A DNA stretch of 64,000 bases, taken from Desulfocapsa sp. GTDB taxonomy: Bacteria; Desulfobacterota; Desulfobulbia; Desulfobulbales; Desulfocapsaceae. Shown here in pieces: positions 26-21,664 of the stretch. Position 1 is the stretch's first letter, and each line of letters opens with the position of its first letter. The DNA is taken from contig VMSP01000065.1 in assembly GCA_013792135.1 (NCBI GenBank), positions 1-64,000 of the forward strand, in the 5' to 3' direction. Below the pieces are notes generated by a model. It was not told the origin of the DNA. It did not search any database and was given only the letters and a program-made list of their open reading frames with translations. Both the position numbers and the translations under genes were made by a program.

Positions 26-367
26 ATGACCCGTGAAGAAATCATGGAAAAAAAGATTTCTATGGCAAAGGAACGGGATTCCAGAATCATGAAGATCAGT
101 TCGCCGATGGGCAGCATCATGTTCAATGTCCTGCGGCAGTTTGACCAGGCGTATGCCAATTTCAAGGGGCAATTAGGAGAGCCCGGGGGAGTCTCTCACG
201 AAGAAGGTGTCGCGCTCATGGATGAGGCACGAGAGCTCACAATGGCCTTTTCTGGGCTCACCGGCAAGTTGAGCAAAAAAGTCAAATTCAAGTATTTCGT
301 ACCACAGGAATTACAGGAAATGCAGAAGGCGGTGAGTGGGAAAAAGAATGAGCTCCCTGCCAGATAA
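26..367 (+). CDS. hypothetical protein (113 aa)
   Basis: A 113-aa, lysine- and methionine-rich soluble protein with no motif I recognise. No signal peptide or membrane segment is visible; the sequence looks mostly helical. The ATG at 26 has a good ribosome binding site (AGGAGAAA) at 10-17. A second in-frame ATG lies six codons in. The upstream context is outside the window, so it may end a longer operon. Function unknown. Confidence 0.6.
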   Translation: MTREEIMEKKISMAKERDSRIMKISSPMGSIMFNVLRQFDQAYANFKGQLGEPGGVSHEEGVALMDEARELTMAFSGLTGKLSKKVKFKYFVPQELQEMQKAVSGKKNELPAR

Positions 368-506: not shown

Positions 507-701
507 TTAGCGGCCACACTTCTTCGCAGGCTTATCCCCAACCCCTTCACAAACAGTACATAGGATATCAGGTTCAGTGCTTCGATCAATTAACTTCCAG
601 TTACCAGTCAAAATGGATTCAATTTTTTCTTTTTTACAGGCCTCACATACCCAGATTTCCTGATTATTTTTGCTCAATATTCGGTATTTATACTTATTCA
701 T
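507..701 (-). CDS. small CxxC zinc-ribbon-like protein (64 aa)
   Basis: Encodes 64 aa with two CxxC pairs (C19/C22 and C48/C51) and a further Cys near the C-terminus, the spacing of a small treble-clef or zinc-ribbon fold. No catalytic residues are visible. It is followed by a clear terminator at 458-491, so it appears to be a monocistronic gene. A TATAAT-like -10 lies only a few bases upstream of the ATG, so the leader may be very short. Metal binding is inferred from the cysteines; the role is unknown. Confidence 0.55.
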   Translation of the reverse strand: MNKYKYRILSKNNQEIWVCEACKKEKIESILTGNWKLIDRSTEPDILCTVCEGVGDKPAKKCGR

Positions 702-769: not shown

Positions 770-1099
770 CTATTTCTTCTTTAACTTGTCGGTCTTGCAT
801 CCACAGCCACAACCAGCCTTTGGCTTGGCACAGACTGACTCTTTCAGATTCTTGCCAACATTGAATTTCACAACCTTCTTCTCTGCAATTTTGATCTCTT
901 TACCGGTTTGAGGGTTACGGCCGGTACGGGCTGCCCGCGTGGTCACTGAGAAAGATCCAAACCCAATAAGGGTCACGCTCTCATCTTTGGCTAATGCCTT
1001 AGCGATGGCCTCCAACACTGATTTCAGAGCTTTTTCTGCTTCTACCTTGGTGAGACCTGCTGATTCGGCGACCTGGCTGACGAGTTCTGACTTGTTCAT
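770..1099 (-). CDS. hup: HU-family DNA-binding protein with Cys-rich C-terminal tail
   Basis: Histone-like HU protein of 109 aa that bends and compacts nucleoid DNA as a dimer. Residues 1-90 are a full HU fold with the family signature GFGSF followed by the DNA-binding arm ARTGRNPQTG around residues 57-66. The ATG at 1099 is preferred over an upstream start at 1207 because AGGAG sits just before it and the HU family starts here (MNKSEL). The odd part is the C-terminus: about 19 extra residues with cysteines at 90, 97, 99 and 101 (core GCGCGC) and a terminal Lys tail. Canonical HU is about 90 aa and lacks this. The tail could bind metal or respond to redox state; that is inference. Confidence 0.93.
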   Translation of the reverse strand: MNKSELVSQVAESAGLTKVEAEKALKSVLEAIAKALAKDESVTLIGFGSFSVTTRAARTGRNPQTGKEIKIAEKKVVKFNVGKNLKESVCAKPKAGCGCGCKTDKLKKK

Positions 1100-1203: not shown

Positions 1204-1380
1204 TCATTTCCAGCTCAGAAGCATCACACTCACCGCCGGTAACAACAGTAGCACTACAACACCGAGACAGCCGCCTTTTCCACCCTTTCGCTCTTGACCA
1301 TGCGTCTCAATCTCCTCGTAGATAATAAAATCAAGAGCATCGTCCTTGTCGAAGATGTTGTCAGGCCTGCAGTCGCGCAT
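1204..1380 (-). CDS. 58-aa membrane mini-protein downstream of zorD
   Basis: Short gene of 59 codons including the stop. The N-terminal half is acidic and polar (DNIFDKDDALDFIIYEEIE), then a Gly/Lys linker (KGGKGGCLG), then one hydrophobic segment (VVVLLLLPAVSVMLL) to the end. This is a single-pass or tail-anchored topology. AAGGA lies six bases before the ATG at 1380. It follows the zorD stop by only 28 bases on the same strand, so it is probably co-transcribed with the Zorya genes. Acidic small proteins with a Gly-Cys stretch before a terminal membrane segment look familiar from deltaproteobacterial genomes, but I cannot name a family. A link to Zorya is inference from position. Confidence 0.65.
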   Translation of the reverse strand: MRDCRPDNIFDKDDALDFIIYEEIETHGQERKGGKGGCLGVVVLLLLPAVSVMLLSWK

Positions 1381-1408
1381 AGAACGTCCTTACTGCATCC
1401 GTACCCGG

Positions 1409-4400
1409 TTATCGTAATTGGTTCCCTGCTCCAGACAACAAAAAGAATTCCAAATCTCTTCTCTTTACCGGTTTTTCACTCAGCATCTGAATCAAATCAT
1501 CCCGATCAACCAGTTCGACATGATTGAGATTGGCCTGGGTGCTAGCCATCCCGTTAAAACGCTGATTGGTTACTGCAATTTTCTTGAAGGCAACACCTGA
1601 GTGTCTGGCTGCGTAAGCCGCAGTCCCAGCTGTGACATCCTTAACTGCCTCCCACCCCAGTTCCTGGTCAACAAGAGAAGAGCTTTTACACTGTATAAGA
1701 GCTCCGATTTTTCCATTGCCATGAATGGCGACCACATCAATACCCCCATCGCCCGTTCGAGGAGTTGTATAGACCTTGGAATAGCCGTGGGCATTCCATA
1801 GAGAGGCGCAGAAGGCTTCAAAACATTCCGGGGTCATGGCGGCAAGATCTTCTGGGGAAACAGGCTCGTTCCCAAAAGCGTTGCCGCCACCCACATCCTC
1901 CAAGTCTCCGAACTCCACTGACGAGATGTCACCGGTTCCGTTGAGCATATCGTCTGAAAGGCCTCTTTTCCAGTCCAGCAGTTTGTCGAGCTTGGCGTCA
2001 AACGACAGAAAGTCATGGGCGGTGATGACCGGGTAATAGACAAAGACATCCTTGGTCTGTCCGATGCGGTAAGCCCGGTCGGTTGCCTGGTCTTCTTTGG
2101 CAGGATTCCAGGGCCGGGTGAAATGGACGACATGATTGGCGGCCTGAATGTTCACCCCAAAACCAACGGCCAGCGGCGAGAGGATAATGACCCCGAATCC
2201 CTCTTTCTGCTGAAAGGCCCTGATCCGCTTCTGCCGACTGGTCGCACTCTGGGATTTAGTTGAGGTGTCGCCATTGATTATATCAGCGGTAATTCCAAAA
2301 CGTTCAGTAATGGCACGGTTCAAGGTCCGCTGAAGGTCACGAAATTCACAAAAAACAATAACCTTCTCGCCTTTTGTTTGAATCTTCACCAACTTCCGCA
2401 GCAGCCAAGCCATTTTTGGGGAGTCCTTCTCGATTTCCGCCAAGGACTCCCGCTCTGTCCCAAGCTGCCCAGGAGGTCTTGGGTCGGAACATAGTCGACG
2501 CAGATACTGCAGCAATCCCAGTGGGCTATGCAGGCCGGAAACGGAGGGACCTGCTGCAGGTCGATGACGGAATTGACTGATAGCATGGGCGTAAAGAGCG
2601 CGTTGGCGATCAGAGATCGGCAGACTCCGGCATTCAGTATTAATGATCTTGCTAGGTAGATCCTTGGCCACCTCGGCCTTAGTGCGGCGCATGATCTGAG
2701 GGGCAATAATGGTGCGCAACTCTTCCACCCGTGCCTTTTCCTCCTCGCTCTCCGCCTCGATTGGCCGGCGATAGCGGTCGCCAAAGGAGTTAAGAGCCCC
2801 GAGGAGTCCTGGCTGGGCGAAGTCAAACAGGCACCACAAGTCGGTCAGGGTATTTTCAACCGGTGTGCCGGTGCAGGCAATTTTCAACCGGGCGTTCTGT
2901 TTTTTTGCCGCCCTGGTCACCATTGCGTTGGGGTTTTTTATTTTTTGAGCCTCGTCGCAAATCATTGCCGACCAGCGTTGAGCAGCCAGGGAAAATTCCA
3001 GGTCGCGAAGGGTCTCATAGGTGGTCAGCACTATCTTTGCCTGACCGATCCAATCGCGACGCAGAAGACGACAGACCCCGGCGGCAGTAAGTTCTGCCTC
3101 GATAGCCCTCCTAGGCAATCGGTTATCGGCAAGTGTGTTACCGTAGAGTGTAAGCACCGGCAGAGTACCGGGAGCAAAGAATTTGGCGATCTCTTCCTGC
3201 CAGTTCTCCAACAGGGATACTGGCGCCACCACCAAGAACGGATCGAGGGTGGGATCGTCTTCCAGACAAGTTGCGATCATGGCTAGTAGCTGAATAGTCT
3301 TGCCTAACCCCATATCATCGGCCAGCAATGCCCCACAACAGTTATCAGGAGAGTTCGCCCAAAGATGCTGCAGCCAAGCCAGACCGCTCAGTTGGTGGTC
3401 TTTCAATTGGATATCATTTCTTAATGAGCTCGGCAGTCTTGGCTTAATTCCCTGGGGATTAAGAGGTAAGACCCCTCTCTCTGCCGCATAGTCAAGCTTG
3501 TCCACATTGGGCTTGAGCACTAGGCCTATCTTTTCTATGGAACTAGTCTTTCCCCGTGCCTTATTGGGATCGAATACCCCTTTTCTGATATCGCTACCCG
3601 CCTCCTTGAAGATAGCCGCCATCTCCTCGGCCTCAGCTACCTTCAGCGGTTTAGGGCACCCTGGAAATTCAAAGATCTCTTTCCCCTCATCTTTGGCCTT
3701 TTGCAATTTCTCCTGAAGCTCTCCCAGCATCGTGTCATCGAGAGACAGGGCTATTGGTTCGTCTTTACCGTCCGGGGTGTAGAAGAGCCCAAAAACCACA
3801 TTTTCGGGGAACCATTTATCGTCGGCGGTCTTTTTGGCAATAAAAGCTGAATAGTACGGTTTTTCGACCCCAAAGCCCTGCACCCTCTCCGAGTAACGCG
3901 ACAGATCAAAAATTTCGTTGGCGCTGAATTCTTGGGACGGCTGTAAATTCCGTAGTGCGGCTTTGAGAAGGGCAAGTTGATCCGGCGTGTCGCCCAGAAT
4001 CTCCAAGTCGTAGCCTTCCCAGAAGCAGCACTGTGCTCCGCGTGCAATCTTATCCTCAAGTTTAGTCACAAACCTTTGCAGTTCATCGTTCGCAGTGAGG
4101 TCTAGTTCTTCACTGCGAATCTCTCCATGGAGAGATTCTTCAACCAGCAAGGCGATATGAACTGGTAAGCCGTTTTCATCTCGTTGCACCTTGGCAATAA
4201 ATCGGGCAAAAGAAATCCCCGCCTGCTCGCGGGCCTGCTCAAATTGGGCGGGGTCGATGGCCTTGTCCGCATCTGGTCCCAGAGCGGCAAAAGGATTGCG
4301 GATAAAGGCCTCGGCCCGTTCACCGGCCACCCTGCGGCCTGGCATCCGCTTGATCTCACGCAATACCGTCTGCACTTCTGGGGCCAGAATGACATGAACC

Positions 4401-5179
4401 AGGCCCTCACCGTCGGCAATTTCGTAACGTTCCTGAGTATCGGGTAAGTGGTCAAAGATTTCCAACCACCGAGCTGGGGCACCATCGAAGCCTGGCAACA
4501 CCTCCACGGTCTTGCTTTCGCCAAACTGGGCTTTACGCAATTCAATGTTCAAACGTTCAGGAGTCAAGACAATGGTCTTGCGCAGGAAATCGGTCAGATC
4601 GGCATTGGCTTTGAAGGCTGCGCGTCGAATAACGGCCCAGGCAAGCTTGTTGGCTTCCAGATTCCGTTGGTGCGAATCCCGTTGATGAAAGATGGTCACT
4701 GCCTCAACTGTCTCCCAGGCCGCCTGAGGTAACAGAATCTTTGTCTGGCCATGTTCCAACTGAGCACCAGTCCGGGAGACGTTGTCATGCACTGGCCGGC
4801 CGTTCGGATCCAGCCATCCGGAGAGGATAACCGAAAACCCCTGGTCGCTCAGGCTTCCCCGGCTGGAGAGCACAGGCCGCCACTCCTCTATGTTCGGAAG
4901 ACCGAGTAAGCTTATGCTGTCTTGATAGTCTCTATTGCAGGCTAGTTCGTAAAAGGCTGGCCATGGTAACATGAGCTCCTGGTCGTGCCACTGTGCGAAA
5001 CCTTCCTCTTCAAGTTGGCTGAGGAGGGAAACCAGTTCTGCTTGTGGGCCAAAGGCAGAGGGAGTGGCAATCCAGTCATCTATTCTTGGAACAACACTGT
5101 AAATAGACCCCTGAGGACGAATTTCGCATGTGAGCCGATATTGCTCGTCTTTTTTTAATGAAGAAAATGGCCAACCCAT
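1409..5179 (-). CDS. zorD: ZorD: SNF2-family helicase fused to Mrr-like nuclease (type I Zorya)
   Basis: Effector of a type I Zorya anti-phage system, about 1256 aa. Residues 1-550 are a long N-terminal region with no motif I recognise. The SNF2 helicase core follows, with Walker A DDMGLGKT near residue 620, DEAQ box near 743, and helicase motifs V/VI (QAANHVVHFTRPWNP, then DQATDRAYRIGQ). The C-terminal ~140 residues form an Mrr/PD-(D/E)xK-type endonuclease domain with GDGGIDVVA and IQCKS as the catalytic strand motifs. The ATG at 5179 is chosen because AAGGAG lies five bases upstream; it starts two bases after the zorC stop codon, consistent with translational coupling. In known Zorya systems, ZorD degrades invading DNA after the membrane motor ZorAB senses infection. 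The catalytic residues seen here look intact. Confidence 0.93.
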   Translation of the reverse strand: MGWPFSSLKKDEQYRLTCEIRPQGSIYSVVPRIDDWIATPSAFGPQAELVSLLSQLEEEGFAQWHDQELMLPWPAFYELACNRDYQDSISLLGLPNIEEWRPVLSSRGSLSDQGFSVILSGWLDPNGRPVHDNVSRTGAQLEHGQTKILLPQAAWETVEAVTIFHQRDSHQRNLEANKLAWAVIRRAAFKANADLTDFLRKTIVLTPERLNIELRKAQFGESKTVEVLPGFDGAPARWLEIFDHLPDTQERYEIADGEGLVHVILAPEVQTVLREIKRMPGRRVAGERAEAFIRNPFAALGPDADKAIDPAQFEQAREQAGISFARFIAKVQRDENGLPVHIALLVEESLHGEIRSEELDLTANDELQRFVTKLEDKIARGAQCCFWEGYDLEILGDTPDQLALLKAALRNLQPSQEFSANEIFDLSRYSERVQGFGVEKPYYSAFIAKKTADDKWFPENVVFGLFYTPDGKDEPIALSLDDTMLGELQEKLQKAKDEGKEIFEFPGCPKPLKVAEAEEMAAIFKEAGSDIRKGVFDPNKARGKTSSIEKIGLVLKPNVDKLDYAAERGVLPLNPQGIKPRLPSSLRNDIQLKDHQLSGLAWLQHLWANSPDNCCGALLADDMGLGKTIQLLAMIATCLEDDPTLDPFLVVAPVSLLENWQEEIAKFFAPGTLPVLTLYGNTLADNRLPRRAIEAELTAAGVCRLLRRDWIGQAKIVLTTYETLRDLEFSLAAQRWSAMICDEAQKIKNPNAMVTRAAKKQNARLKIACTGTPVENTLTDLWCLFDFAQPGLLGALNSFGDRYRRPIEAESEEEKARVEELRTIIAPQIMRRTKAEVAKDLPSKIINTECRSLPISDRQRALYAHAISQFRHRPAAGPSVSGLHSPLGLLQYLRRLCSDPRPPGQLGTERESLAEIEKDSPKMAWLLRKLVKIQTKGEKVIVFCEFRDLQRTLNRAITERFGITADIINGDTSTKSQSATSRQKRIRAFQQKEGFGVIILSPLAVGFGVNIQAANHVVHFTRPWNPAKEDQATDRAYRIGQTKDVFVYYPVITAHDFLSFDAKLDKLLDWKRGLSDDMLNGTGDISSVEFGDLEDVGGGNAFGNEPVSPEDLAAMTPECFEAFCASLWNAHGYSKVYTTPRTGDGGIDVVAIHGNGKIGALIQCKSSSLVDQELGWEAVKDVTAGTAAYAARHSGVAFKKIAVTNQRFNGMASTQANLNHVELVDRDDLIQMLSEKPVKRRDLEFFLLSGAGNQLR

Positions 5180-5181
5180 GC

Positions 5182-6903
5182 TTACTCCTTCCACCAACCT
5201 CTGCCGGATTTGAATTTGAAACCCAGTTGATCCAAGTCATGACAATGACCCCAATCATATATGACCCAAAAAGCACCACCACTGGGGCGATTATCTTCTG
5301 CAATGTAATGATAACGTTCGCAAAAAATCTTAACGTCTCTTTCCCAAGTAGGAATAGAGTTCGGTGATGTTGACGGTGATGCCGGCCTTCGTATCGTCGC
5401 TCCAGTCTGTGGAACGGAGGTAGCTCTGCGCCGTATAAATTTTTCTTGAGGTGGTCTGAAACCGATGAGCGGACAAAGTATCTCGTCGAGTTTCTCTTCC
5501 CAATTTGTCCCGGTGCTCTGGGAGTCCCGATGGATAAATCGTTCTCCCATTTGATTCTTTAAGCCAGCGCTATCCCCCCGAATACAGCTTTTACTAAGAT
5601 CAAAAGGCAGTTCATCCGATCGATACATATACGAGGCGCTGCCCTTTAACCCGAACTCGACAACTGTCACAGGCCCCAACCGCATGATAAAAGCATTATT
5701 CTGTGATGAACCTGGTGGGGCTTCAAGTGTATGTAATTTGCCTTTGGCCCGATTTCGGAACTCTTTAAAATTGGAACTCTGGTGTTTGTTTGCATGAGGC
5801 CCCAAAGCAAACCAATAATCTTCTATATTCGGCTCCAAGCGAAGCCAGTAGTTGAGCCGCCGCTGATCAGCGGAACCATCGTCAGAGAGGAGTTCAAAGA
5901 AGTTTTTAATTAATTCACGTTTGAGCCAGCCGTTAACCATCTCCCTTGCGGCCTCGTAGGGCTGTCCGTCCTTGGTTTTGACGTGGGCGTCCCAGGCAGT
6001 TCTTTTCAACCACGGATTGCCGATATGGCCTACTGCCGAGTCGCGTAAGGCAGGATGTTCAGGTCTTGATGAACATTGAGCGTAACGGCTCACCAGCAGG
6101 GAGATACAGCGAATGACCAGATTCACAGAGAGCATACTGTTAGCTTGGAGCAGCCTGAGAAGCCGGTCAAGATCGCCTTTATAGCCTTGATCATCATGGC
6201 GACAGGCCACTTCAACCTGGGATAATATCAGCTCCTGCCAGACCCAAGACTCTCGTGGCACACCCAGACCTTCCCGTAACGTTTGATGCACTACAACATC
6301 CTTATTTCCTTCCCGAAGGTCATGGACATAACGCTCACACGGTTTCGGCCCCAGAAGGTTTTGGTGTTCATCCAGCAGGGTTAACCAGCCGGCAACAGGC
6401 GTGGCGTGTTTGGCTGCCGTCAGGCGATCGGCGAGATAACCGCGCAGATGTTCCCAATTTTTCTGTGAGTCACGGGCAAAGAGGGCATAGCTGAAATAGC
6501 TGGAAAGAAGGCCCTGGTAGCCTTTCCGAAAACGCCTGGGCTCTGACCGCAGGTCATCGACCTGAACCAGCAGTTTGCCAAACAACTGATCATCATCAAA
6601 CAGACACCAATTGCCTGAAAGTTCCTGGCCAACGCCAAAACAGGCGTATTTCAAGTCCAGAAAGGTCGGCAAACTCCCGGTTCTGCGGTATCCGTCCAGG
6701 ACTTTTACAATCGATCGTTCTGGCAGTTCTGATGTCGGGGCATCAAAGGCCTTCTTGACCTCGGCCAGGGCCATGGTCATCAAGTTTGGTTGCCCCCAGG
6801 CTGAAGAGCTTAGGCGCCGCTCATCAAAGGATTGGCTCATCTTGTCGCGTAATCGTTCTAAGGCATTCATGGCGGAATCAGTCAAGCGGACAACGGGGAT
6901 CAT
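5182..6903 (-). CDS. zorC: ZorC (type I Zorya)
   Basis: Cytosolic DNA-associated component of type I Zorya, about 573 aa. No enzymatic motif is apparent; ZorC proteins carry an EH-signature-type region. Assignment rests on its fixed place between zorB and the SNF2/Mrr zorD, and on length typical for the family. The start is uncertain: an upstream TTG at 6945, the ATG at 6903 and an ATG at 6870 are in frame. The first two overlap the end of zorB (stop at 6878), as is common in coupled operons. The C-terminus (WERDVKIFCERYHYIAEDN) is rich in aromatics. It is known to work with ZorD on DNA; the detail here is inferred from the family. Confidence 0.85.
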   Translation of the reverse strand: MIPVVRLTDSAMNALERLRDKMSQSFDERRLSSSAWGQPNLMTMALAEVKKAFDAPTSELPERSIVKVLDGYRRTGSLPTFLDLKYACFGVGQELSGNWCLFDDDQLFGKLLVQVDDLRSEPRRFRKGYQGLLSSYFSYALFARDSQKNWEHLRGYLADRLTAAKHATPVAGWLTLLDEHQNLLGPKPCERYVHDLREGNKDVVVHQTLREGLGVPRESWVWQELILSQVEVACRHDDQGYKGDLDRLLRLLQANSMLSVNLVIRCISLLVSRYAQCSSRPEHPALRDSAVGHIGNPWLKRTAWDAHVKTKDGQPYEAAREMVNGWLKRELIKNFFELLSDDGSADQRRLNYWLRLEPNIEDYWFALGPHANKHQSSNFKEFRNRAKGKLHTLEAPPGSSQNNAFIMRLGPVTVVEFGLKGSASYMYRSDELPFDLSKSCIRGDSAGLKNQMGERFIHRDSQSTGTNWEEKLDEILCPLIGFRPPQEKFIRRRATSVPQTGATIRRPASPSTSPNSIPTWERDVKIFCERYHYIAEDNRPSGGAFWVIYDWGHCHDLDQLGFKFKSGRGWWKE

Positions 6904-7591
6904 TGTCGAGTGGGGTATTTCTGGGTGCAGGTCGTTGCTCGTCAATATCCAGAAATTCCAGTTTCAACTCGATACGTCGGCTCTCGTCCTGGCTCTCTTT
7001 GAGTGAGTTAAATGACGACCCGCCTACCAGAAAGATATCTCGGATCATGATCCGGTCTTCTTCGCTCAGGGCGTCTGGAATTTCTTGTCCATAGGCCATT
7101 AGGACACATAAGACCCGCTCCGAGCGTTGCAGGCTCAAATTCAGGTTTCTGATATAGGTGCCGCGCTGGTCGGCAAAGCCTTCCACCACAACACGTTTGA
7201 GCCATTTTTGTCCCAAGGGGTCGCGAACAGCAGCCAAAATCTTCGGGACAAAAGAGCGCAACATGGAGGCCTGTGCATCGGTGAGATTGTGCTTGGCCGT
7301 AGCAAAACGGGCCTGATCACCGAAGTCTATTGAATGGCCACGCACCACAACCCCAGGATAGTCCTTTGTGGCCTCGCTGATCCTGTTAAGGAGCTTGGTT
7401 ATTTCATCTTCCCGTTGCACTTTTTTCTTGTCAGCCTCGGATATTTCATGAGTGATCGCCAAGAGAGCCACGGTCATGGCCACCAGGAAAAGGACCATCA
7501 TGGCCGTCATCAAATCGGTAAAAGAGATCCAAAACGGCTTTTCGGCCTCGTCTTTTCCAGACTTACGATTTGGTCGTTGGATACCGAGCAT
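6878..7591 (-). CDS. zorB: ZorB: OmpA/MotB-like peptidoglycan-binding stator subunit
   Basis: Inner-membrane stator protein of 237 aa that pairs with ZorA as a proton/ion-driven motor. A short cytoplasmic tail leads into one transmembrane helix at about residues 22-47 that begins ISFTDLMTAMMVLF. The Asp at residue 26 is in the position of the conserved ion-carrying aspartate of MotB/ZorB proteins. A linker and coiled stretch (EADKKKVQREDEITKLLNRI) precede an OmpA-like domain (about 90-215) with the peptidoglycan-binding pattern VEGFADQRG and NLSLQRSERV. The start ATG at 7591 is six bases after the zorA stop, and the gene overlaps the start of zorC. No obvious defect. Confidence 0.92.
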   Translation of the reverse strand: MLGIQRPNRKSGKDEAEKPFWISFTDLMTAMMVLFLVAMTVALLAITHEISEADKKKVQREDEITKLLNRISEATKDYPGVVVRGHSIDFGDQARFATAKHNLTDAQASMLRSFVPKILAAVRDPLGQKWLKRVVVEGFADQRGTYIRNLNLSLQRSERVLCVLMAYGQEIPDALSEEDRIMIRDIFLVGGSSFNSLKESQDESRRIELKLEFLDIDEQRPAPRNTPLDNDPRCPLD

Positions 7592-7597: not shown

Positions 7598-10021
7598 TTA
7601 CCTTTTAGAAGCGACAGAATCAAGGGTGTCACCCAACTCCAGGATGGCGGTCCTCAAATAGCCAACAGCGTCCGACAACTCTTTATGAAACTGAAAATTA
7701 CCCTCGCGCATGGTTTTGGTGACACTCTCGGCAAAAGTGGCATGCGCCTCGCTTAAGACTTCTGTCACACCCTCCAGATAATGATCTGCGTCCATGCTGG
7801 CGGAGGCGAGTTTGTCGGATGCACCCTGAAGCCGAGAAACCAAGTCGGTAGTGAGCGAAGCTTCACGGCGAGCTGTTTCCACTGTTGCTTTGAGTTCTGT
7901 AACAATTGCCGCGAATGCGCCGGTTGATGACTTGTAATCGTCAAAGACCAGCTGCACCCCGGAGCTGGCCCCCGACAAGGTGCTTGCCGAGGTCTGCAAG
8001 ACTTGGGCCGTCTGACCTATCGCCCCCATGGTTGCCGCCACTCGTTTTTCTGCATCTGAAAGTTCGCTCGTTGCCAGTAGTAAGGAGTCGGCCCCTGAAT
8101 TCATGCGTTCAATGGCAGACTTTGAGGCAGAAGCCATGGATGCAGCGCTGGACTTAGTGCTTTCGGCGGCATCCGCCACCCTCCGTCCCAGAGCATCCAC
8201 CTGGGAGGTCAAATGGCCAAGCAATTTGGCAGATTGTTCTGCCAGTTCAGTCTGACGGCTGGCGCTGGCATCTTCCGAACGTTTAGCCATCTCTTGCAAA
8301 CTTGAAACAGCCTCCTGAACTTGCTTGCCTAAGCTCTCGACAACCTGTTGACTGGCCTGGGCTGTGTGTAGATGGGCCTCACTCGACGCGTCTTTGGTCG
8401 AGGTCAGAAAAGATTCCATCCTCTCTGTGACCCGCAACAAACTGTCATTATGGACACCAGCCGCAGATTTTGTTTGTTCATCCATCCTGGAAACCATCAA
8501 GGAGACCTGCTCACCAAGCTGCCCAAGGGATTCTTGTAGCTTTTGCGAGGTTTGGCCCTGCGATTCCTGGAACATATCGCGCATTCCCGACAGAAAATCC
8601 GTCATTCCCTCCGCGAGCTTAGCAAGCTGAGTTTCATGACTGCCGGCAGACAACTTGGTTTGGGTATCAAGCTGGGCGACCATCAGGGAGACCTTGTCAC
8701 CAAGTTCGGTCATGATGCTTTGCATCCTTTGGGCGGACTCGCTTTGTGAATCCCGTGAAGTAGCCCGCATCTGCTCGACAAAGTCCTGCATCTGCTGGGT
8801 CATGGCCCTTTGCCTGGTTTCCATGGCAACGATTGCCTCGTGAAGTTTTTCGGCCATGGCATCAGCCGCTCCTTGCCCAGCATTTTGCATATTTGCCGCT
8901 AACTCGTCAAACTTGGCAACCGTTCCCAGCATCGCGCTGTTCGTCTGTCCAAGCAGATCAGTCATGCCGCGCAACTGTCCACCAAACATATCCTGCATCT
9001 GTGCAGAAAAATTGACCAACACATCGGTGAGCATCTTGTTTACGCCCTCACCTTGATTAGAGCTGGCCCGATCGACAGCGACCGAAATACGCTCCATGGG
9101 GAGCCGCATTGTGTCCGTGATGGCCTGAGCCAGGTCCTGAGACATCTGTTGCGTATTCTTTGTGGATGCCTGAACTTGCTGGGCGGTGATGTCTGACAGG
9201 ATTTGCTTTAAGTCGGTGACCAAGGAATCTTTAAGCTGCATGGACTGAGTGGCGCTAGTCTCAGATGCGTGAACCAGACGGGCAAGATATTCTTCCCCCG
9301 CTCCAGCTTTGAAGAAGCTATCGATAATTTGGCACAGGTCCTCAACCTGCCGATAATGAAATGTGACCAAGGTTTTTTCAACCCAGGTTAAAAACATTGC
9401 TAACCCAATAGCCGAAGCAGAAATCCAAAAGGCATGGCCAACGCCCTGGATCAAATTGCGAAGACATGCCCTGACAGCATCCGGATTGTTTGAGACCTCG
9501 AACTGGGTAAGTCCATTAATGAGCCCGGCGAAGGTACCGATAATACCCAGGCCGGTGAGAATGCCGGGGAGGTGTTTGTAAAATTCTGTCTTGAGCGGCG
9601 TATCAACCAGGACTTGCTCGGTAAAAAAGGCCTCGGCCATGGTTGTGGCCCTCCAACAAATCACCCGCTCCTGTCCAGATTCATCAATACTCTTTTGCGG
9701 ATGGAGGGTTTCCGTGTATTCGCTCCACAGGTGTTTTAGACTTTTTGTGGTCATGGCCTGGGTTACAATCGGTTCGAGATCAACGAGATCTGAACCATTG
9801 GTCGCGGCCTGAATCTTGTTGAGATGTTTAATGGCACTACCCAACTTCCGCCCCAAGAAAATCGCTGGAATCACAAATTGAAAGAAAAACATCAATATAA
9901 ATAGTGCGATAAAAGATATCACAATCCTGTTGGGAACAGACTCCAGCAAGGGAATGAATATCATGATCCTGTTCCACCATGACTCTAGCATTGGGGAAAG
10001 CATGCTCAAGAAACCGCTCAT
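7598..10021 (-). CDS. zorA: ZorA: MotA/ExbB-like motor protein with long coiled-coil tail
   Basis: First gene of the Zorya operon, about 807 aa from the ATG at 10021 (MSGFLSML), chosen because AAGGA precedes it; an in-frame upstream start at 10096 would add 25 residues. Transmembrane helices are visible at IVISFIALFILMFFFQF, at the glycine-rich LTGLGIIGTFAGLINGL and at FWISASAIGLAMFLTW, the MotA/ExbB channel pattern. From about residue 260 to the end the protein is a very long Gln/Ser/Ala-rich coiled coil, the intracellular tail that distinguishes ZorA from flagellar MotA. Within it an ~70-residue unit recurs (compare GDKVSLMVAQLDTQTK with GEQVSLMVSRMDEQTK). In studied Zorya systems this tail transmits the infection signal to ZorC/ZorD. 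Confidence 0.92.
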   Translation of the reverse strand: MSGFLSMLSPMLESWWNRIMIFIPLLESVPNRIVISFIALFILMFFFQFVIPAIFLGRKLGSAIKHLNKIQAATNGSDLVDLEPIVTQAMTTKSLKHLWSEYTETLHPQKSIDESGQERVICWRATTMAEAFFTEQVLVDTPLKTEFYKHLPGILTGLGIIGTFAGLINGLTQFEVSNNPDAVRACLRNLIQGVGHAFWISASAIGLAMFLTWVEKTLVTFHYRQVEDLCQIIDSFFKAGAGEEYLARLVHASETSATQSMQLKDSLVTDLKQILSDITAQQVQASTKNTQQMSQDLAQAITDTMRLPMERISVAVDRASSNQGEGVNKMLTDVLVNFSAQMQDMFGGQLRGMTDLLGQTNSAMLGTVAKFDELAANMQNAGQGAADAMAEKLHEAIVAMETRQRAMTQQMQDFVEQMRATSRDSQSESAQRMQSIMTELGDKVSLMVAQLDTQTKLSAGSHETQLAKLAEGMTDFLSGMRDMFQESQGQTSQKLQESLGQLGEQVSLMVSRMDEQTKSAAGVHNDSLLRVTERMESFLTSTKDASSEAHLHTAQASQQVVESLGKQVQEAVSSLQEMAKRSEDASASRQTELAEQSAKLLGHLTSQVDALGRRVADAAESTKSSAASMASASKSAIERMNSGADSLLLATSELSDAEKRVAATMGAIGQTAQVLQTSASTLSGASSGVQLVFDDYKSSTGAFAAIVTELKATVETARREASLTTDLVSRLQGASDKLASASMDADHYLEGVTEVLSEAHATFAESVTKTMREGNFQFHKELSDAVGYLRTAILELGDTLDSVASKR

Positions 10022-10070
10022 ACATTGTCCTTTTTGGAGATTAAGGAAGGAGGTATTAGTAAATTGCTTA

Positions 10071-10098
10071 TTCTGTATAATTTGTGAGCCGATCACAA
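10071..10098 (-). promoter_or_regulatory. candidate zor promoter -10 and palindromic operator
   Basis: Upstream of zorA on the minus strand a TATACA -10-like box (10074-10079) lies next to a palindrome TTGTGA-N5-TCACAA at 10082-10098. The half sites resemble the TGTGA/TCACA arms bound by CRP/FNR-family or WYL-type dimeric regulators, though the spacer is five rather than six bases. Its position overlapping the probable promoter suggests an operator. No good -35 is seen. Confidence 0.4.
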
Positions 10099-10348: not shown

Positions 10349-10897
10349 TCAAACGGTCTTGGTTCTCTGCTCCATGACATACTCGGCAGCACGTCCCAAA
10401 GCATCAAGAACCTCAGCCACGGCGCCATGTGACATTAGAGTGTTCCCAGGCTCCTCATAAGCATACCGCCACCTCACAAATGGATTGTCTCCAACACTCC
10501 TTAGCGCTTCTATGAACAACGCTATACGTCGGTTCGAGGCGTTCAACAAAGGGGTACCCGTGTTATTCCGAAACATTCCTGCGATGAGTTCCTGATAGTC
10601 GGGTTTGATTTTGTTCCAAAGGTCACCAAGCTTGTGTCCAGAATCGTGCTTAGGGACTGCATCTTTTTTATCGGACCTATCCAACATAAGGAAGAATTTC
10701 ATGAAGAGCTCAATCGCAAAGCTCGAACAGACAATTGCAGGAAAGGTAAACTCGAGGCGATCGGTTTGTTTTCCATGATTACTGATCAAAAGGCCAGAAT
10801 GCGCGTATGCAATTGCAATCGCGTAAAGCGCGGTGTAATCAATATGCGTTTCCCCTGGAACTAGGAAGAGTACTGGTATTGCGGGAGCGGAGGTCAT
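10349..10897 (-). CDS. hypothetical protein, possibly HEPN-like (182 aa)
   Basis: An all-helical-looking cytoplasmic protein of 182 aa, placed on the same strand upstream of zorA with a gap of about 330 bases. The ATG at 10897 is chosen because AGAGGAA precedes it, and because the upstream 22 codons look non-coding. A hydrophobic helix CSSFAIELFMKFFLML followed by a polar stretch and HKLGDLW resembles the helix pairs of HEPN-like proteins, but the diagnostic RxxxxH RNase motif is not clearly present. I do not assign an enzymatic function. It lies inside a defence island, so a defence-linked role is plausible but not shown. Confidence 0.6.
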   Translation of the reverse strand: MTSAPAIPVLFLVPGETHIDYTALYAIAIAYAHSGLLISNHGKQTDRLEFTFPAIVCSSFAIELFMKFFLMLDRSDKKDAVPKHDSGHKLGDLWNKIKPDYQELIAGMFRNNTGTPLLNASNRRIALFIEALRSVGDNPFVRWRYAYEEPGNTLMSHGAVAEVLDALGRAAEYVMEQRTKTV

Positions 10898-11286
10898 ACT
10901 GATTCCTCTGTGATGGGGGTTTTCGACTTGAAGTCGCTGATTGCGTGGCCAGATAGTGCCCACAATCTTAATACTTCAAGGTCGTGTCAGGGTCAGTCTT
11001 ACCGGTCGACCGACCAAATTGAATTGCTCGCGAATCCAAGGCTGGTCAACGTCCGGTCTTACATCCACAGCAGACAGGAATGATTGAAATGCCAACGACG
11101 CCTCTGGCCGACAAGCAGACGTACGCGCTAACAAGTTATTGCCTATTTTCTGTGTACTACACATAATGAGGTGATATACAGAAAATAGGCATCATTTTCA
11201 GAGAACTTGATTTGAGCCTTCGAGAGTGAAGATCTTTCCAAACATGTTTGCCTAATCACAAAAAAGTTATAACCAATTATCTTGTC
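10898..11286. other. gene-free spacer (389 bp)
   Basis: Between the 182-aa gene and the type III Res gene. It contains the long inverted repeat at 11140-11191 (listed separately). One 62-codon frame on the minus strand (10976-11164) has no ribosome binding site and no family resemblance. No promoter stands out. Confidence 0.5.
11140..11191. repeat. 17-bp inverted repeat with 18-bp loop
   Basis: Arms 11140-11156 and 11175-11191 match over 17 bases with one mismatch (core GCCTATTTTCTGT / ACAGAAAATAGGC). It sits about 100 bases downstream of the res stop codon and could be a weak terminator, an operator or the remnant end of a mobile element. There is no T-run directly after either arm, which argues against a classical terminator. 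Confidence 0.6.
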
Positions 11287-14200
11287 TCAGCAGTTAGTTA
11301 CCGCCATGCCGACAATTTCCATCAGTTTGCCGTAATCGGTTACTACATCATATTTCACTTTTTCTGGATCAAGCTTGCGATTGAGCTCCGCGAAAAATTT
11401 CCGGGCACACTCGACTTTTGTATGTTCGATAGCTCTCAGAGACATGGTGGACATGGAGCCTTTGGTTTCAGCGACAAAGTAAATGTGTTTGACTGCTCCT
11501 TCTTTGAAGGAAATAGCCCAGTCTGGATTGTAGTCTCCAACCGGTGTGGGGATAAGAAATCCGCGTGGAAGTTTTGCGTACACCACTACTTCATCACTGG
11601 TGTCCAGCTCTTGAACGAATTTTCTCTCAACCTTAGAATCGGTAATAACAAAGTCATAGATATGGTTGCGGAGTTTTTCGCCAGCCTTGGTGAAGTCCTG
11701 TTTGCTCTGGCCAGTGGTAAATATGTTGCTGTCATATGAACCGGCTATTTCGTCATAACTCAATCTTTCAATGATAATCGTTGCCTTTTGTTCATTGATC
11801 AGACGACTTGCCTCGGTAATGAAATGTTCGGGATTCTGTTTAAACTGCTTGAATACGACCGGTTCCATGCCACTAAGTATTTCGGCGATGGTCTTGCGGG
11901 TCAACCCGGTATTTTCAGCCAGTTTACCCAGAAGATCATAGCTGACCAGTGAATGAATTGAGGCCTTGTGCGTTTCTACAGTCGTTTTTTCAAGAATAAA
12001 TCCGTCGCCGCTTTTCAGTTGCGAGTCAGTGATCTGGTTGTCCTGTGTTCCGGACTGAATGGTATATTGGAGTGGCGTAACCTCCAACTTATCAAGCACC
12101 TTGATACTATTCCGAACAAGCTCACTCGAATCAAACTCGACCCGGTAAACAGCCTTCTTGTTGATGCGGCTCCAAAGTTGCTGAAACTCTTTTTTCTCAA
12201 AATTCTTGGTATTCAGAGGGTTGGTCCTGGTTCTGCTGGCGTCTCCAATATCCGGCAGTTGAGCCTCACTGAAGATGCCATTGATGAGTTGAACAACCTG
12301 TTCCGTATAAGGCTTTAAATCCTCAGGCAGCTCTGCAATAGTCCCAATTTTAAGTTCATTATGATATTTTTCGGTAATATTTCGCTTTTTATCAACATAG
12401 CCATTTTGAATCAGGAAGAATTCTATATCGGTCGCCATATCATCCGTGACAACCACATTTCCTTGATCTGTCTGGATTATTTTCCCCATGAAATAGTTTT
12501 TGTCAGCAACGCGTGGCCTTTCTGAAAGAGAGTCGCTGATCTCTTTCTGCAGATTGGCAACAAAATCCTTGTAGCTTTCACTGGCCACAACCGTCAGTAC
12601 ATTCACCTCATGTACTGTGGCTGGGTGATCCATCCGGTCGCCATGCTGGTTGACAGACAACCGCAGGCCCCGGCCAACCTCCTGGCGGCGGGAGATCATA
12701 TTGTCACTGTGCTTCAGCATGCACATGACAAAGACATTGGGATTGTCCCAGCCTTCACGCAAGGCGGAATGGGAGAAGATAAATCGAACAGGTTCTTCAA
12801 AGGAGAGCAAACGCTCCTTATCTTTCAAAATCAGGTCATAGGCATCAACATCATCTGATAATCCTGCATCTTCGCCACGCATCCTATAACTTGGGTCAGT
12901 GAGTCGTTTGGTCTTCTTGTCAATGGCGAAATAGCCATTATGAGTGCGGGATACTTCAATATCGCTCAGGTATTTTTGATAACTCACCTTATTCTCAAAG
13001 GGCAATTCACTTAAAACCTCTTTTTTGAGCTGTTCGTACTCCTCCTCAAAAATACGGGCATACTCACCCTTTTCATCAGCCTGGCTGTAATCACGGTACT
13101 TGGCCACTTCATCAATAAAGAACAGGGAAAGAACCTTGATCCCCTGGTTGAAAAGTTGATTTTCCTTTTCTATATGGGCCTTGATGGTCTCGCGGATTTG
13201 AATTCTCCGGATCGTTGCCTCGGTTACATCACTGGTCGCATCACCGATGGTCAATACCGTTCCATTGGTGAACTCCACCGTATTTTGATTAGCATCAATT
13301 TGCGCAACCACAAAGCCTCGATACTGGTCCAGGGTTGACTCAACAAAAAGGTCTCTGCCTTTTTCCAAACGAAGTATCTTTCGCACAATGCTTCCAGACT
13401 TGAGCTTTATCTCCACTTCAATACGAGCCACAGGCGCTTTTTTTGACACCTCGAGGGACTCCAGGAAAAGATAGGCGCTTGTTCCCGCCAACCCTTTTAC
13501 GGCTATGCCCCGAACCAGTATCTTTTTCACCAGCTTTTGGTTATAGGCATCCAGGGCGTCAAGGCGGTGAATTTTGTTGTGGGTGGTGCGATGAGTCGCC
13601 GAATAACGCAGGATCATCAGCGGCTTGAACTTGGCCAGCGCATCCAGCGTTTTTGCGCCTTCCATCTTTTGGGGTTCATCAAGAATCAGGACAGGATGGT
13701 TACTGCTGATAACATCAATGGGGCGACGGCTCTGAAAGTCGTCCAGCTCTTCAAAAATACGACGGTTATCTTTGCCGGTGGCGTTGAAGGCCTGGATATT
13801 GATGACCATGACATTGATACCGGCATCGGACGAAAAACTTTCCAGATGATGGAGTTGCTTGGAATTATAGATAAAAAATCGAATCTTTTTGCCATAACTT
13901 TCGGTAAAATGCTCGGCGGTAACGCTGAGGGATTTGAACACTCCTTCACGAATGGCAATGCTCGGCACCACAATGATAAACTTGCCCCAGCCATAGCGTT
14001 TGTTCATCTCAAAGATGGTCTTGATATAGCAGTAGGTTTTTCCGGTGCCGGTTTCCATTTCCACATCAAGATTGACCTTGCAACCGGCACTTACAATCAT
14101 CTTCTCAGACAGGGGCAGATTCTGTTGTCGCTGTACTCCATGGATATTTTCAAGAAGCTGAATTTCAGAAAGTTGGATGTCGTCATTTCTGAAACCCTTG

Positions 14201-14364
14201 GTTTCATAAATTCTTGGTTGGTACACTCCTGTTTTACTTTTCTTTCCTCGACCGGGATCAATGTCGTATGTAAAGCCAGAGGTATTTACCTGCCCGGCGA
14301 AGCAGTCCACCACGGATTCAACGGCAGCGGTCTGAAAGGGCTGGACTTTGAATTTAAGCTTCAT
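11287..14364 (-). CDS. res: Type III restriction enzyme, Res subunit (helicase/endonuclease)
   Basis: DEAD/DEAH-type ATPase and endonuclease subunit of a type III restriction-modification system, 1025 aa. The N-terminal domain begins with the family pattern [18 protein letters not shown]. Walker A is METGTGKTY near residue 107, motif II is LDEPQKMEG near 229, and a late helicase motif is [14 protein letters not shown]-(D/E)xK nuclease lies at the C-terminus (NPDWAISF then [11 protein letters not shown]). It cuts DNA when unmethylated sites are met by the Mod-Res complex. It is the last gene of a five-gene minus-strand operon (18.2-21.5 kb helicase, DUF4391, mod, DUF1016, res). No internal disruption. 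Confidence 0.93.
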
Positions 14365-14456
14365 TACAGCTTATCCTTTAATTTCTTTCTGCAAATTTTC
14401 TTGAAAAGCACAGCTTTCTTTCTGCACCCGACTTGTTCTTTCTGCAAAATCCTCGA

Positions 14457-15602
14457 TTACCGTTCTTCCCTCATGGCGGCTTCAATCAACTTGCGTTCCT
14501 TCTCAATTTCCAGCCGTAACTCGTCTTCGCTGGGCAGAAATTGCAGGTATTTTGAGGCGAAAATCTGGCGCCCTTCGTTCAAGACCGAATATTTTGCCAC
14601 TGCTTCACTTTTGTCAGAGCAGAGAATCAGGCCAATAGTCGGGTTGTCTCCTGTCACCTTGAAGCGATCTTCATACAGTCGGACATAGCCATCCATCTGG
14701 CCAACATCACGGTGGGTCAACTTGCCGATCTTGAGGTCAATCAAGAGAAAGCATTTCAGGATGAAATTGTAGAAGACCAGATCCACGAAGAAATCGTCAT
14801 CATCGAAACGAATATGTTTTTGACGAGCGACGAACGAAAAACCCTTGCCCAGCTCCAACAGGAAGGATTGAAGGTTATCAATGATGGCTTGTTCCAGACT
14901 ACTTTCATGGAGATCAGGGGAGTCCGGCAGGCCGAGAAATTCGAGAACAAAAGGCGATTTCAGAAAGGTCGTAGCCGAAGTTGATTCACCCGACATTCTC
15001 TCTCGTGATGCAGAAATAAGTCCATTCTGACCATGGTTAGCGATGATTCGCTGATAATACGAGGACTGTATTTGCCGTTCAAGTTGATCCTTGCTCCAGC
15101 CGCAGTCAATGGCTTCCTGCTCGTAAAAAGCACGCGCATCATGATCCTGAATCCGCATTATGGCTCGGTAATGCGACCAAGAGAGCAACGGAGAAAAGCC
15201 TCGCGAAGATTCCCTACCCGCCGGGTACTGAATTTGTTTTGTTTCGTTCTGCTCACTTAATTCAGTACCGGACGGGTACTGAATGACGATACGGTCTGAA
15301 AATGAAAGATAAAATTTCCTAAAATTCTGGAGATTGGGAACTGAAAATCCGGTTCCGTATTGTTGCTTCAACTTTTTTGCCAGTACCTCTAACACCTGCT
15401 TGCCATACTCTGCCCGTTCCTCGCCTCCCTGCAACTCCTGCACAATCTCCCGACCAATTAACCAGTAGGCCAGAACCATGTTGGAGTTAACTGAACGGAC
15501 GACATTGGCTCGCGCCTGTTCAAGGATGGCAGCAACCCGCTGAAACAGCGATTCTTCGCCAGGTTGAACCATATCTTTTTTTTCGTGAGTCCCGTTTTTC
15601 AT
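14457..15602 (-). CDS. DUF1016/YhcG-family PD-(D/E)xK nuclease
   Basis: A 381-aa protein of the YhcG/DUF1016 family. The N-terminal half is a winged-helix-like DUF1016_N region (ARANVVRSVNSNMVLAYWLIGREIVQE). The C-terminal half is a predicted PD-(D/E)xK nuclease with FVDLVFYNFILKCFLLIDLK, whose ExK-like D-L-K triad is the expected active site. The start codon overlaps the mod stop (ATGA at 15599-15602), so the two are translationally coupled. Family members often sit inside restriction-modification loci. Between residues 104 and 135 there is a near-repeat (VIQYPSGTE and QIQYPAGRE). Its exact reaction is unknown. Confidence 0.88.
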   Translation of the reverse strand: MKNGTHEKKDMVQPGEESLFQRVAAILEQARANVVRSVNSNMVLAYWLIGREIVQELQGGEERAEYGKQVLEVLAKKLKQQYGTGFSVPNLQNFRKFYLSFSDRIVIQYPSGTELSEQNETKQIQYPAGRESSRGFSPLLSWSHYRAIMRIQDHDARAFYEQEAIDCGWSKDQLERQIQSSYYQRIIANHGQNGLISASRERMSGESTSATTFLKSPFVLEFLGLPDSPDLHESSLEQAIIDNLQSFLLELGKGFSFVARQKHIRFDDDDFFVDLVFYNFILKCFLLIDLKIGKLTHRDVGQMDGYVRLYEDRFKVTGDNPTIGLILCSDKSEAVAKYSVLNEGRQIFASKYLQFLPSEDELRLEIEKERKLIEAAMREER

Positions 15603-17533
15603 ATCGTCTTCACATCTGTGTTCGGCGACATCTGTTTGAAGATCTGTTCGACATTGATTTTAACGGCATCGGAGGCAAAACCGGTATCGCGGAAGACAAC
15701 ACGAACGGGTTCAAAACGGGCCAGTTCCTTGACCAGTTCCTCGTTGACGCCAGTATCGAAGCAGGCAATAAGGTCGTAAGGCGGTTGATTGACAAAGAAA
15801 ACTGACTTGCCCTGGATGAGCTCTTTGCGAATCAGCAGGGTCAGCTCAACGCCCCAGTCCAGTAAGACCTGGAAAAGGAGGTCTTCCGGATGACGGTCGG
15901 GTTTAATGTTATCGGTGAAGAGGCTCAGTTGCTGTTGGTTGATGGCATCCGGGGTGTAATAGACATCGGCCATGTTCGAGGAATCTACTTTGAGGACACG
16001 GAAGCCGATGTCTTTGTTCCAGCCTTCATGGCATTTACCTTCAATAATTTTTATTCCGGCTCGGCGGATGCGTTCTTTGCTGATGTCGGCGATAGTTGGA
16101 TAGCCAGCCTTGAAGGCCTCGGACTTTTCGTCACACGGTTCGGGCAACTGCACCATGATGAATTTACGATTGCCGCCGTCTTCGGCATTGAGTTGCATGA
16201 CGGCATGGGCAGTGGTGGCGGAGCCAGCGAAGAAATCAAGAATAACATCGTTATTAGTTGAGGAACCCTGTTCTATAATTTCTTCGATCAATGCGACGGG
16301 TTTGGGGAAGTCCATAACTCTATCCCCAAACAAACTTTCAATGTTTGCTGTTCCATCTTTAGTAAAACACTTTTCACCAATAATTGTTGAGAAACCGGTA
16401 AATGCTGATTCAATCTCATCAACAAAAGCCTTTCGGCGTGGTCGTCCATCCGGGCTTTCTGGCCACAAAATTCGGCTATCAGACATCAATCGTTTCATAG
16501 TGTTCGGCTCATAGCGCCAGCCCATTTTGGGACAGCCATAGTTAATACCAGTTTCTGGATTAACCAAATCGTAGTGAAGATTCGGGCGACGGTCTGCCGT
16601 CGCAAGACCAACCATATTGGCACTCGCCCAATCTCCCCTTGGATCTTTGTCAGGATTTTTATACTGGGACTGATCCCGCTCTGAACCACGAATCAGTTTG
16701 CCATAACAAATTATATGTTCATGGTCTTTTGAGGCACCATTCATTGAACGATTGTCCTTGTTCAGTCGGCTTTTCCAAACAAAAGTAGCGATAAAACGGT
16801 CTGCTCCAAATACCTCATCACACACCTTCCTCAGATTATGTACTTCACCATCATCAATACTAATAAAAATAACCCCATCATCCTTGAGCAAATTCCTCGC
16901 CAGCTTCAATCGCGGATAGATCATACTCAACCAGTCCGAATGAAATCTGCCGTTCGCCTCGGTGTTGGCCACTAACCGGTTGCCCTCTGCGTCCTTCTGA
17001 TTCGACCGTTGCAAGAACTCCTCGCTGTTCTCGGCAAAGTCATCCTCATAGATAAAATCATTGCCAGTATTGTACGGTGGGTCAATGTAGATCATCTTGA
17101 CCTTGCCGAGATAGGTCTCCTGGAGCAACTTCAAGGCATCCAGATTATCGCCCTCAATAAACAGGTTTTGGGTGGTGTCATAATCCACACTCTCTTCCCG
17201 ACAAGGCCGCAAGGTCTTGGCAATGGGCGCATTGGCGGTAAGCAGGGCCTCCCGCTTGCCCGGCCAGTTGAGGTGGTAACGCTCCTGCGGACCTTCCACG
17301 ATGGCCTCGGACAGCTCCTGCCGCAGTTGATCAAAGTCAACCGCCAATTTTAAGGATGAAGGATGAGGGCTGAAGGCTGAAGTTTCGGAAGGTTGTTTTT
17401 CATCCTTCATCCTTCCGCCTTCATCCTTTATTTTCACTTCCGTCACGCAATTCGGGAACAGCTCCATGATCTTGCGGATGTTTTCCTGGGTCAAATTCGG
17501 AGAGTGCATTTTCATCTTTTCCATCATGTCCAT
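15599..17533 (-). CDS. mod: Type III restriction-modification methyltransferase, Mod subunit
   Basis: Site-specific DNA N6-adenine (beta-class) methyltransferase, 644 aa. Motif IV is DPPYNTGNDF near residue 152 and precedes the target recognition region; the SAM-binding motif I is DFFAGSATTAHA near residue 433, the order expected for type III Mod. It protects host sites and gives specificity to Res. The N-terminus has an odd low-complexity insertion at residues ~34-62 (KDEGGRMKDEKQ then SPHPSSLK) that corresponds to the palindromic repeat at 17352-17428. The downstream DUF1016 gene overlaps its stop by 4 bases. Catalytic motifs are intact. Confidence 0.94.
   Translation of the reverse strand: MDMMEKMKMHSPNLTQENIRKIMELFPNCVTEVKIKDEGGRMKDEKQPSETSAFSPHPSSLKLAVDFDQLRQELSEAIVEGPQERYHLNWPGKREALLTANAPIAKTLRPCREESVDYDTTQNLFIEGDNLDALKLLQETYLGKVKMIYIDPPYNTGNDFIYEDDFAENSEEFLQRSNQKDAEGNRLVANTEANGRFHSDWLSMIYPRLKLARNLLKDDGVIFISIDDGEVHNLRKVCDEVFGADRFIATFVWKSRLNKDNRSMNGASKDHEHIICYGKLIRGSERDQSQYKNPDKDPRGDWASANMVGLATADRRPNLHYDLVNPETGINYGCPKMGWRYEPNTMKRLMSDSRILWPESPDGRPRRKAFVDEIESAFTGFSTIIGEKCFTKDGTANIESLFGDRVMDFPKPVALIEEIIEQGSSTNNDVILDFFAGSATTAHAVMQLNAEDGGNRKFIMVQLPEPCDEKSEAFKAGYPTIADISKERIRRAGIKIIEGKCHEGWNKDIGFRVLKVDSSNMADVYYTPDAINQQQLSLFTDNIKPDRHPEDLLFQVLLDWGVELTLLIRKELIQGKSVFFVNQPPYDLIACFDTGVNEELVKELARFEPVRVVFRDTGFASDAVKINVEQIFKQMSPNTDVKTI
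17352..17428. repeat. palindromic repeat inserted in frame within mod
   Basis: Left arm AAGGATGAAGGATG (17352-17365) and right arm CATCCTTCATCCTT (17401-17414) are perfect inverted repeats, with a further TCATCCTT copy at 17421-17428. It lies inside the mod coding sequence, keeps the frame and encodes a Lys/Asp/Gly/Arg then Pro/Ser-rich peptide. I recall similar GGATGAAGG repeats from other bacterial genomes. Confidence 0.75.
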
Positions 17534-17536
17534 CCT

Positions 17537-21501: not shown

Positions 21502-21664
21502 CCGCTGTTACCGTTTTAAGTAATCTGATGGCCTTATAATAGTTTCGATGCGTATCGTAACTTAGAAACACTATTCTATCCAGTAATTTAACAGGCCTGT
21601 CAAGGAGGTACTACATGCCGGAATTTATGTCCATTATTCCTTGCTAAATGCCTTCACTCGCCGC

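Follow-up and report, generated by a model that had tools for sequence, protein, structure and literature searches.

A 58-residue membrane protein encoded behind a Desulfocapsa Zorya operon belongs to a family linked to several unrelated defence systems within its genus

The stretch of DNA analysed here, called the window, comprises positions 1 to 64,000 of contig VMSP01000065.1 of Desulfocapsa sp. (assembly GCA_013792135.1). Near its start lies an operon assigned by PADLOC to type I Zorya, with ZorA1, ZorB1, ZorC1 and ZorD1 all present, and the subject of this work is the short gene, here named mini, that follows zorD on the same strand (Table 1). The stop codon of zorD and the ATG of mini are separated by 28 bases, and a ribosome binding site, AAGGA, stands 6 bases ahead of that ATG. 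Downstream of mini come a gene for an HU-type DNA-binding protein, a 64-residue conserved neighbour of HU and one gene of a module resembling an integrative and conjugative element (ICE), after which the contig stops. At the other end of the operon, the true start of zorA may lie later than the listed GTG.

Table 1. Features of the window discussed in the text, with the basis of each assignment
Feature	Position	Strand	Basis
mini, acidic single-span membrane protein, 58 residues, ATG start	1204..1380	-	open reading frame listing, family alignments A1 and A2, dN/dS, two-helix model
ribosome binding site of mini	1387..1391	-	read from sequence
zorD (SNF2 helicase with Mrr-like nuclease), directly upstream of mini	1409..5197	-	PADLOC ZorD1, Pfam
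zorC (EH signature)	5182..6945	-	PADLOC ZorC1, Pfam
zorB (MotB-like)	6878..7591	-	PADLOC ZorB1
zorA (MotA-like, long tail)	7598..10096	-	PADLOC ZorA1
HU-type DNA-binding protein, next gene downstream of mini	770..1099	-	Pfam Bac_DNA_binding
64-residue conserved neighbour of HU	507..701	-	open reading frame; homologues beside other HU copies (tblastn)
conserved gene of the ICE-like module; relatives beside a TraG/TrwB-type coupling protein gene	26..367	+	homology
second defence cluster, upstream of Zorya	10349..23587	-	Pfam
IS91-type transposase adjoining tyrosine recombinase	27763..29757		Pfam

The mini product has an N-terminal head with a net charge of -4 and a C-terminal half containing one hydrophobic stretch, whose best 19-residue Kyte-Doolittle window averages 2.66. 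An AlphaFold2 model places helices at residues 14-32 and 39-57, with modest confidence (mean predicted local distance difference test score 74.9, predicted template modelling score 0.32). By the positive-inside rule a positively charged loop lies on the cytoplasmic side, and because the linker preceding the membrane helix is positive, the protein would be a single-span protein with its N terminus inside: an acidic cytoplasmic helix, the positive linker and then the membrane helix. A promoter scan of the minus strand between positions 400 and 1900 gave no promoter-like site, within chance expectation, and one terminator-like hairpin at 491-468, likewise within chance expectation; mini is probably transcribed and translated together with the defence operon upstream. 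All these data agree with the original prediction in its description of a short gene 28 bases behind zorD with its own ribosome binding site, an acidic head and one membrane segment. It was the meaning given to the gene, a fifth Zorya component, that proved too narrow.

A conserved alignment (A2, 30 rows) and purifying selection confirm mini as a real, conserved gene and rule out a chance open reading frame. In this alignment the head is net negative in every row and a Cys opens the membrane helix in every row, with a Gly just ahead of that Cys in 29 of 30 and a Pro early in the helix also in 29 of 30, a pattern that seems to exceed the needs of a plain membrane anchor. Some intact genus copies were omitted from A2 as redundant, as were weak, truncated or start-less places (for instance L104, L106, L107, L108, L111, L113-L122 and L052). 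The median ratio of nonsynonymous to synonymous substitution rates (dN/dS) was 0.17 over 12 copies, 11 from the genus and one from the contig L015, and it was below 1 in all 59 computable pairs (66 pairs in all, 7 of them saturated). The four type III CRISPR-linked copies gave values below 1 in 6/6 pairs, with a median of 0.29. A tree of the 30 short rows had two well-supported inner branches out of 27, and no conclusion was drawn from it.

The family is confined to the order of the host in our profile searches. Profile A1 (E-value at most 0.001) found it in 35 of 257 genomes of that order; the class-wide search took in the same number of genomes and no wider ground, and a sample of 395 genomes of the phylum gave two matches, each from the host's order: the host itself and G038. 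A contig scan returned four mini loci, three of them genus loci also described below (G016:C6, G011:C158 and G007:C81) and the fourth L015, a contig of a metagenome-assembled genome with a copy 72% identical to mini. The tree labels the genome of L015 as Myxococcota, which may reflect a real transfer or a binning error. The window protein had no match in Pfam, NCBIfam, PADLOC or PHROGs, no family member matched NCBIfam, and the 30 family members together gave a single weak PHROGs match (E-value 0.04). Searches with tblastn for the window protein were empty for 50,697 phage and 72,556 plasmid records, which rules out mini as a phage or plasmid gene; one IMG/VR contig matched over 23 residues. 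No sequence match to a solved structure was found.

Within the genus, 17 mini copies were kept, in 8 of its 17 genomes, and 16 of them have a defence-system gene (once, a two-gene unit) immediately upstream on the same strand, so that all 16 defence units are co-directional with mini. Two relics, at G001:C102 (18 residues) and G014:C24 (E-value 0.0016), were left out of these counts. The partner systems are type I Zorya, a Wadjet/MksBEFG-like system, type III-A and III-B CRISPR, BREX, a Druantia-like system, Hhe, PDC-S18 and type I restriction-modification. Besides the Zorya locus itself (G000:C42, gap 28 bp), the host genome carries mini twice more at full length and once as a truncated piece. 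One full-length copy lies 39 bp behind a Wadjet/MksBEFG-like system (G000:C51; JetD E-value 2.3e-9, MksE 5.3e-30) in which the 906-residue SMC-like protein goes unmatched in PADLOC and a 406-residue gene unmatched in Pfam. The other stands 6 bp behind a type III-A Csm5 gene (G000:C123), and genes identified as Csm5 by 57% and 64% identity to that one precede mini in G001:C188 (8-bp overlap) and G014:C58 (6 bp). In G005:C289 the upstream gene is cmr6 (6 bp) and in G010:C172 (8-bp overlap) it encodes a 183-residue protein that neither PADLOC nor Pfam recognises and that shares 39% identity over 181 residues with the C-terminal part of that Cmr6. BREX brxL genes lie upstream in G000:C10 (about 50 bp), G001:C43 (123 bp), G001:C32 (65 bp, the locus being cut by the contig end) and G011:C158 (39 bp). 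The remaining partners are druE with a DruK-like nuclease gene (G016:C6, 95 bp), Hhe/PDC-S37 (G011:C93, 251 bp), a type I methylase with PDC-S18 (G016:C49, 60 bp), a PDC-S18 relative, 94% identical (G011:C65, 183 bp), and hsdR followed by an overlapping YgjP-like gene (G007:C81, 59 bp). At the five type III loci mini either starts 6 bp after its neighbour or overlaps it by 8 bp; at the other defence loci the gaps range from 28 to 251 bp. The one exception is a second copy in G016:C6, which lies 452 bp behind an unassigned 212-residue gene. Outside these 17, the L015 copy stands 40 bp behind genes for a McrB-like AAA protein and a DUF2357/PDDEXK protein.

We also compared these upstream neighbours directly with PADLOC: of 12 scanned, 7 reached 1e-20 and 10 reached 1e-5, while at most 5 of 56 control open reading frames of at least 150 residues from the host genome reached 1e-20, the controls coming from hand-picked contigs and 25 of 49 matching families being listed. 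Within the genus, mini is linked to several unrelated defence systems above chance; the copies are not phylogenetically independent events, so no probability is attached to the enrichment. Searching in the opposite direction, a Csm5 query found four places in the genus, each with mini (three Csm5 genes and, in G005, the end of Cmr6), and brxL found three, all with mini (one truncated), in addition to the partial G001:C32 locus. DNA homology among the genus copies is usually limited to the ribosome binding site and the coding sequence, starting no more than 26 bp 5' of the ATG; it reaches further upstream in the pairs L038/L041 and L043/L046, each of which shares the same system. At the type III loci, the last ~80 residues of Csm5 (L034, L039, L047) and Cmr6 (L049, L050), just ahead of mini, are homologous with up to 85% identity, as if the operon end had been exchanged between the III-A and III-B subtypes. 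A C-terminal docking domain common to the upstream proteins was considered and rejected, as Csm5 and Cmr6 are the only ones to share such a region, and blastp between upstream proteins of different systems gave no other.

According to this, mini is not a Zorya subunit and is instead a shared add-on, since in the genus it directly follows defence systems of many kinds on the same strand. The original prediction had proposed a membrane partner for the ZorAB motor and suggested looking for homologues in other Zorya loci. Near-full-length ZorD (above 1,250 bits) occurs in three other genomes of the order, G113, G057 and G045, each time with ZorC, and none of the three carries mini, either genome-wide by profile or in the Zorya stretch by tblastn, which rules out a Zorya-specific partner. 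Among the 35 mini-bearing genomes, besides the host, a ZorD-profile match at 1e-100 or better is present solely in G175, about 585 kb from mini. The remaining ZorD-profile matches stay under 500 bits, most of them being shorter helicases, and among those genomes G175 alone has mini. In G038 (L052), mini lies about 7.6 kb from a helicase stretch with 32% identity to ZorD, which is taken for a related SNF2 helicase and not Zorya. The short gap to zorD and the separate ribosome binding site are what a fifth Zorya gene would offer, but none of the other genus copies stands at Zorya, and a near-identical 3' part of mini lies behind BREX in G011. We therefore regard that proposal as very improbable: what stands of it is a real short membrane gene forming the next cistron after zorD. 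Homologues in non-Zorya contexts had been named in advance as evidence against it and were indeed found, but within the genus these contexts are not random, being other defence operons.

We put the probability that mini is a membrane accessory common to unrelated defence operons of the genus at roughly 0.5. A functional add-on is favoured by the uniform orientation, the tight spacing at the type III loci, the selection on the protein and the restriction of homology to the gene itself. If it is an accessory, the chances that it serves as a membrane effector, as its anatomy suggests, are about even. The protein might self-associate through the Gly-Cys...Pro helix and, upon expression of the operon or failure of its main system, could contribute a further layer that perturbs the membrane or arrests growth. 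It would act generically, without docking on each system, because its partners (a motor, an SMC complex, CRISPR, BREX and restriction) are mechanistically unrelated. More tentatively, mini may be a lineage-specific general membrane micro-protein, an end cistron on unrelated defence operons that gives them one common membrane-level output such as back-up arrest.

Several observations weigh against an accessory role, and part of them come from the locus itself. In five copies (the window, L041, L044, L038 and L046, the last with an HU relic) the homology continues from mini into HU. A module that encodes a TraG/TrwB-type coupling protein and an HD-domain protein, among others, adjoins HU in L041 and L044 and lies about 6 kb off in G016:C49, which marks the element as ICE-like; downstream of L038 the genes are unrelated. 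The 475-residue gene of this module occurs at 14 places in 6 of the 17 genus genomes. From +80 to +200, counted from the mini ATG, the DNA of the window locus shares 97-100% identity with the BREX-linked locus of G011; from +240 to +700, 460 bp that include HU and its flank, it shares 100% identity with the Druantia-linked locus of G016 (L044). This identity of HU and its flank across two species of the genus points to a recent transfer of the ICE-like element. The window locus is thus a recombination mosaic of stretches matching two other species, and cargo has therefore been exchanged around mini between species, recently. A repeated site motif at mini was ruled out, the 18-base stretch around the ATG occurring once in the window. 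Four of nine HU sites (L036, L203, L206, L208) lack mini and carry cargo that looks restriction-like by eye, which rules out mini as a resident of every copy of the element. Furthermore, hsdR occurs at eight places in seven genus genomes and has mini at one of them; from these two counts, mini is dispensable for many systems. Three genus copies kept in the counts are damaged or end differently, G000:C10 being truncated and the C-terminal ends of G010:C172 and G011:C65 diverging.

Outside the genus the link is looser, a defence context being found at 10 of 33 mini places. Here mini lies 22 bp ahead of cas10 (G195), between cas6 and a cas10-like gene (G129), between Card1 and a cas1-like gene (G059), frameshifted near csm-like genes (G038), beside CRISPR arrays (G141, G160) and with BREX (G124, G190 and two places in G033), the cas10-like, cas1-like and csm-like genes having been identified by eye. 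Other places are beside rsmE, AAA/ydjM-like, exporter-like, HDOD, HNH or unassigned genes, and the remainder includes contig-end cuts and poor matches. BrxL occurs at 39 places in 32 genomes outside the genus, and 38 of these places have no mini directly behind. G124 has a decayed copy directly behind, at a contig end, and in G190 mini lies about 3 kb further on; at the other BrxL places, G033 aside, the order-wide profile search found none on the same contig. In the two BREX loci of G033 (L117 and L119) a weak mini-like reading frame stands at the operon front, between the gene for a WYL regulator and brxA/brxB, the second case being recognised by eye. In addition, two genera (G019 and G070; L051 and L099) share a stable arrangement of an AAA protein gene, mini and a gene for a YdjM-like hydrolase (so named by eye), with gaps of 3-13 bp; this arrangement, non-defence in look, may reflect a more ancient function of the family.

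The mosaic locus, the copies outside the genus in non-defence surroundings and the restriction systems that lack mini favour a passenger, resident at the cargo boundary of ICE-like elements or islands with a function of its own unrelated to defence. We regard this, the main rival, as possible but less likely, and are similarly doubtful of the mechanism that would go with it, homologous recombination through mini and its flanks that swaps the upstream defence cassettes. Such a passenger would account for the same mini-HU block lying behind Zorya, BREX in two genomes, the Druantia-like system and PDC-S18/methylase, for the near identity of the window copy first to the BREX-linked and then to the Druantia-linked locus, and for the many outside copies without a defence neighbour. 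On the other hand, 12 of the 17 genus copies do not adjoin HU, five type III loci keep mini at -8 to 6 bp from the terminal Cas gene, selection acts on the protein, and a boundary need not give one orientation to all 16 defence units. Compared with this, a part in ICE biology, for example as a small entry-exclusion protein carried beside the conjugation module, is improbable. Small membrane proteins are typical exclusion factors and the coupling gene family lies downstream of HU in related loci, but the HU sites without mini speak against it, as do the type III copies, which are not beside a conjugation module, and G001:C32, where mini and HU are followed by unrelated genes. We hold it equally unlikely that mini protects the operon from loss, whether as a regulator or as the small toxin in a guard resembling a toxin-antitoxin pair. 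Its size, its membrane helix and its location at operon ends would suit a small membrane toxin, but a conserved acidic head of this length is uncommon among such toxins, and reading the neighbouring genes brought up no antitoxin shared by the loci, no search for antisense RNA having been made.

The window contains other mobile and defence features. The second defence cluster encodes a WYL regulator, a 214-residue product, an SNF2-type helicase, DUF4391, an N6/N4 methylase, a DUF1016/YhcG nuclease and a Res-type helicase-endonuclease; no mini copy was found behind it. Further along, the IS91-type transposase adjoins the tyrosine recombinase, and similar-looking pairs were seen by eye near HU in L203 and near mini in L104.

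If mini is an accessory, unrelated defence systems would be able to plug into one membrane output, and catalogues of defence genes would miss such parts, mini being small enough to be overlooked. If the output is a common one, the defence arsenal of these bacteria would be modular at its effector end. If mini is a passenger, it marks exactly where whole defence cassettes swap between species, as in the mosaic locus of the window.

Among known systems, mini recalls the membrane toxins of type I toxin-antitoxin systems in its size and single span, and differs from them in its conserved acidic head, its Cys-Pro pattern and its place behind defence operons; an antitoxin was not searched for. With type I Zorya it shares this one locus, as the next gene after zorABCD, whereas its relatives lie elsewhere. 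Zorya has ZorA and ZorB as a core with further components according to type, and the available part of its description names no mini-like gene (PMC11890865). Csx23, a membrane effector of type III CRISPR thought to act by membrane perturbation, is likewise a small membrane protein of a defence locus, but differs from mini, whose single C-terminal membrane helix leaves no room for a cytoplasmic nucleotide-binding domain (PMC11014256). A Csx23-like type III effector was rejected for these 58 residues with two helices and no Pfam match to such a domain, and mini also accompanies systems without Cas10. No small membrane protein common to unrelated defence operons was found described in open-access titles and abstract openings, a scope that mostly excludes subscription journals. 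To our knowledge, BrxR, the accessory family known to be common to many unrelated defence systems, is a regulator. The BrxR/CapW WYL regulators form one family associated with many systems, including BREX, restriction, CRISPR, Wadjet and Zorya, with a defence system within 50 kb downstream of 164 of 347 BrxR homologues (PMC9122601). Mini has no detected sequence relation to BrxR, being without a Pfam match. As one family common to many unrelated defence systems BrxR/CapW is its nearest precedent, although BrxR is a soluble DNA-binding repressor and mini a 58-residue membrane protein encoded directly behind the operon (PMC9122601).
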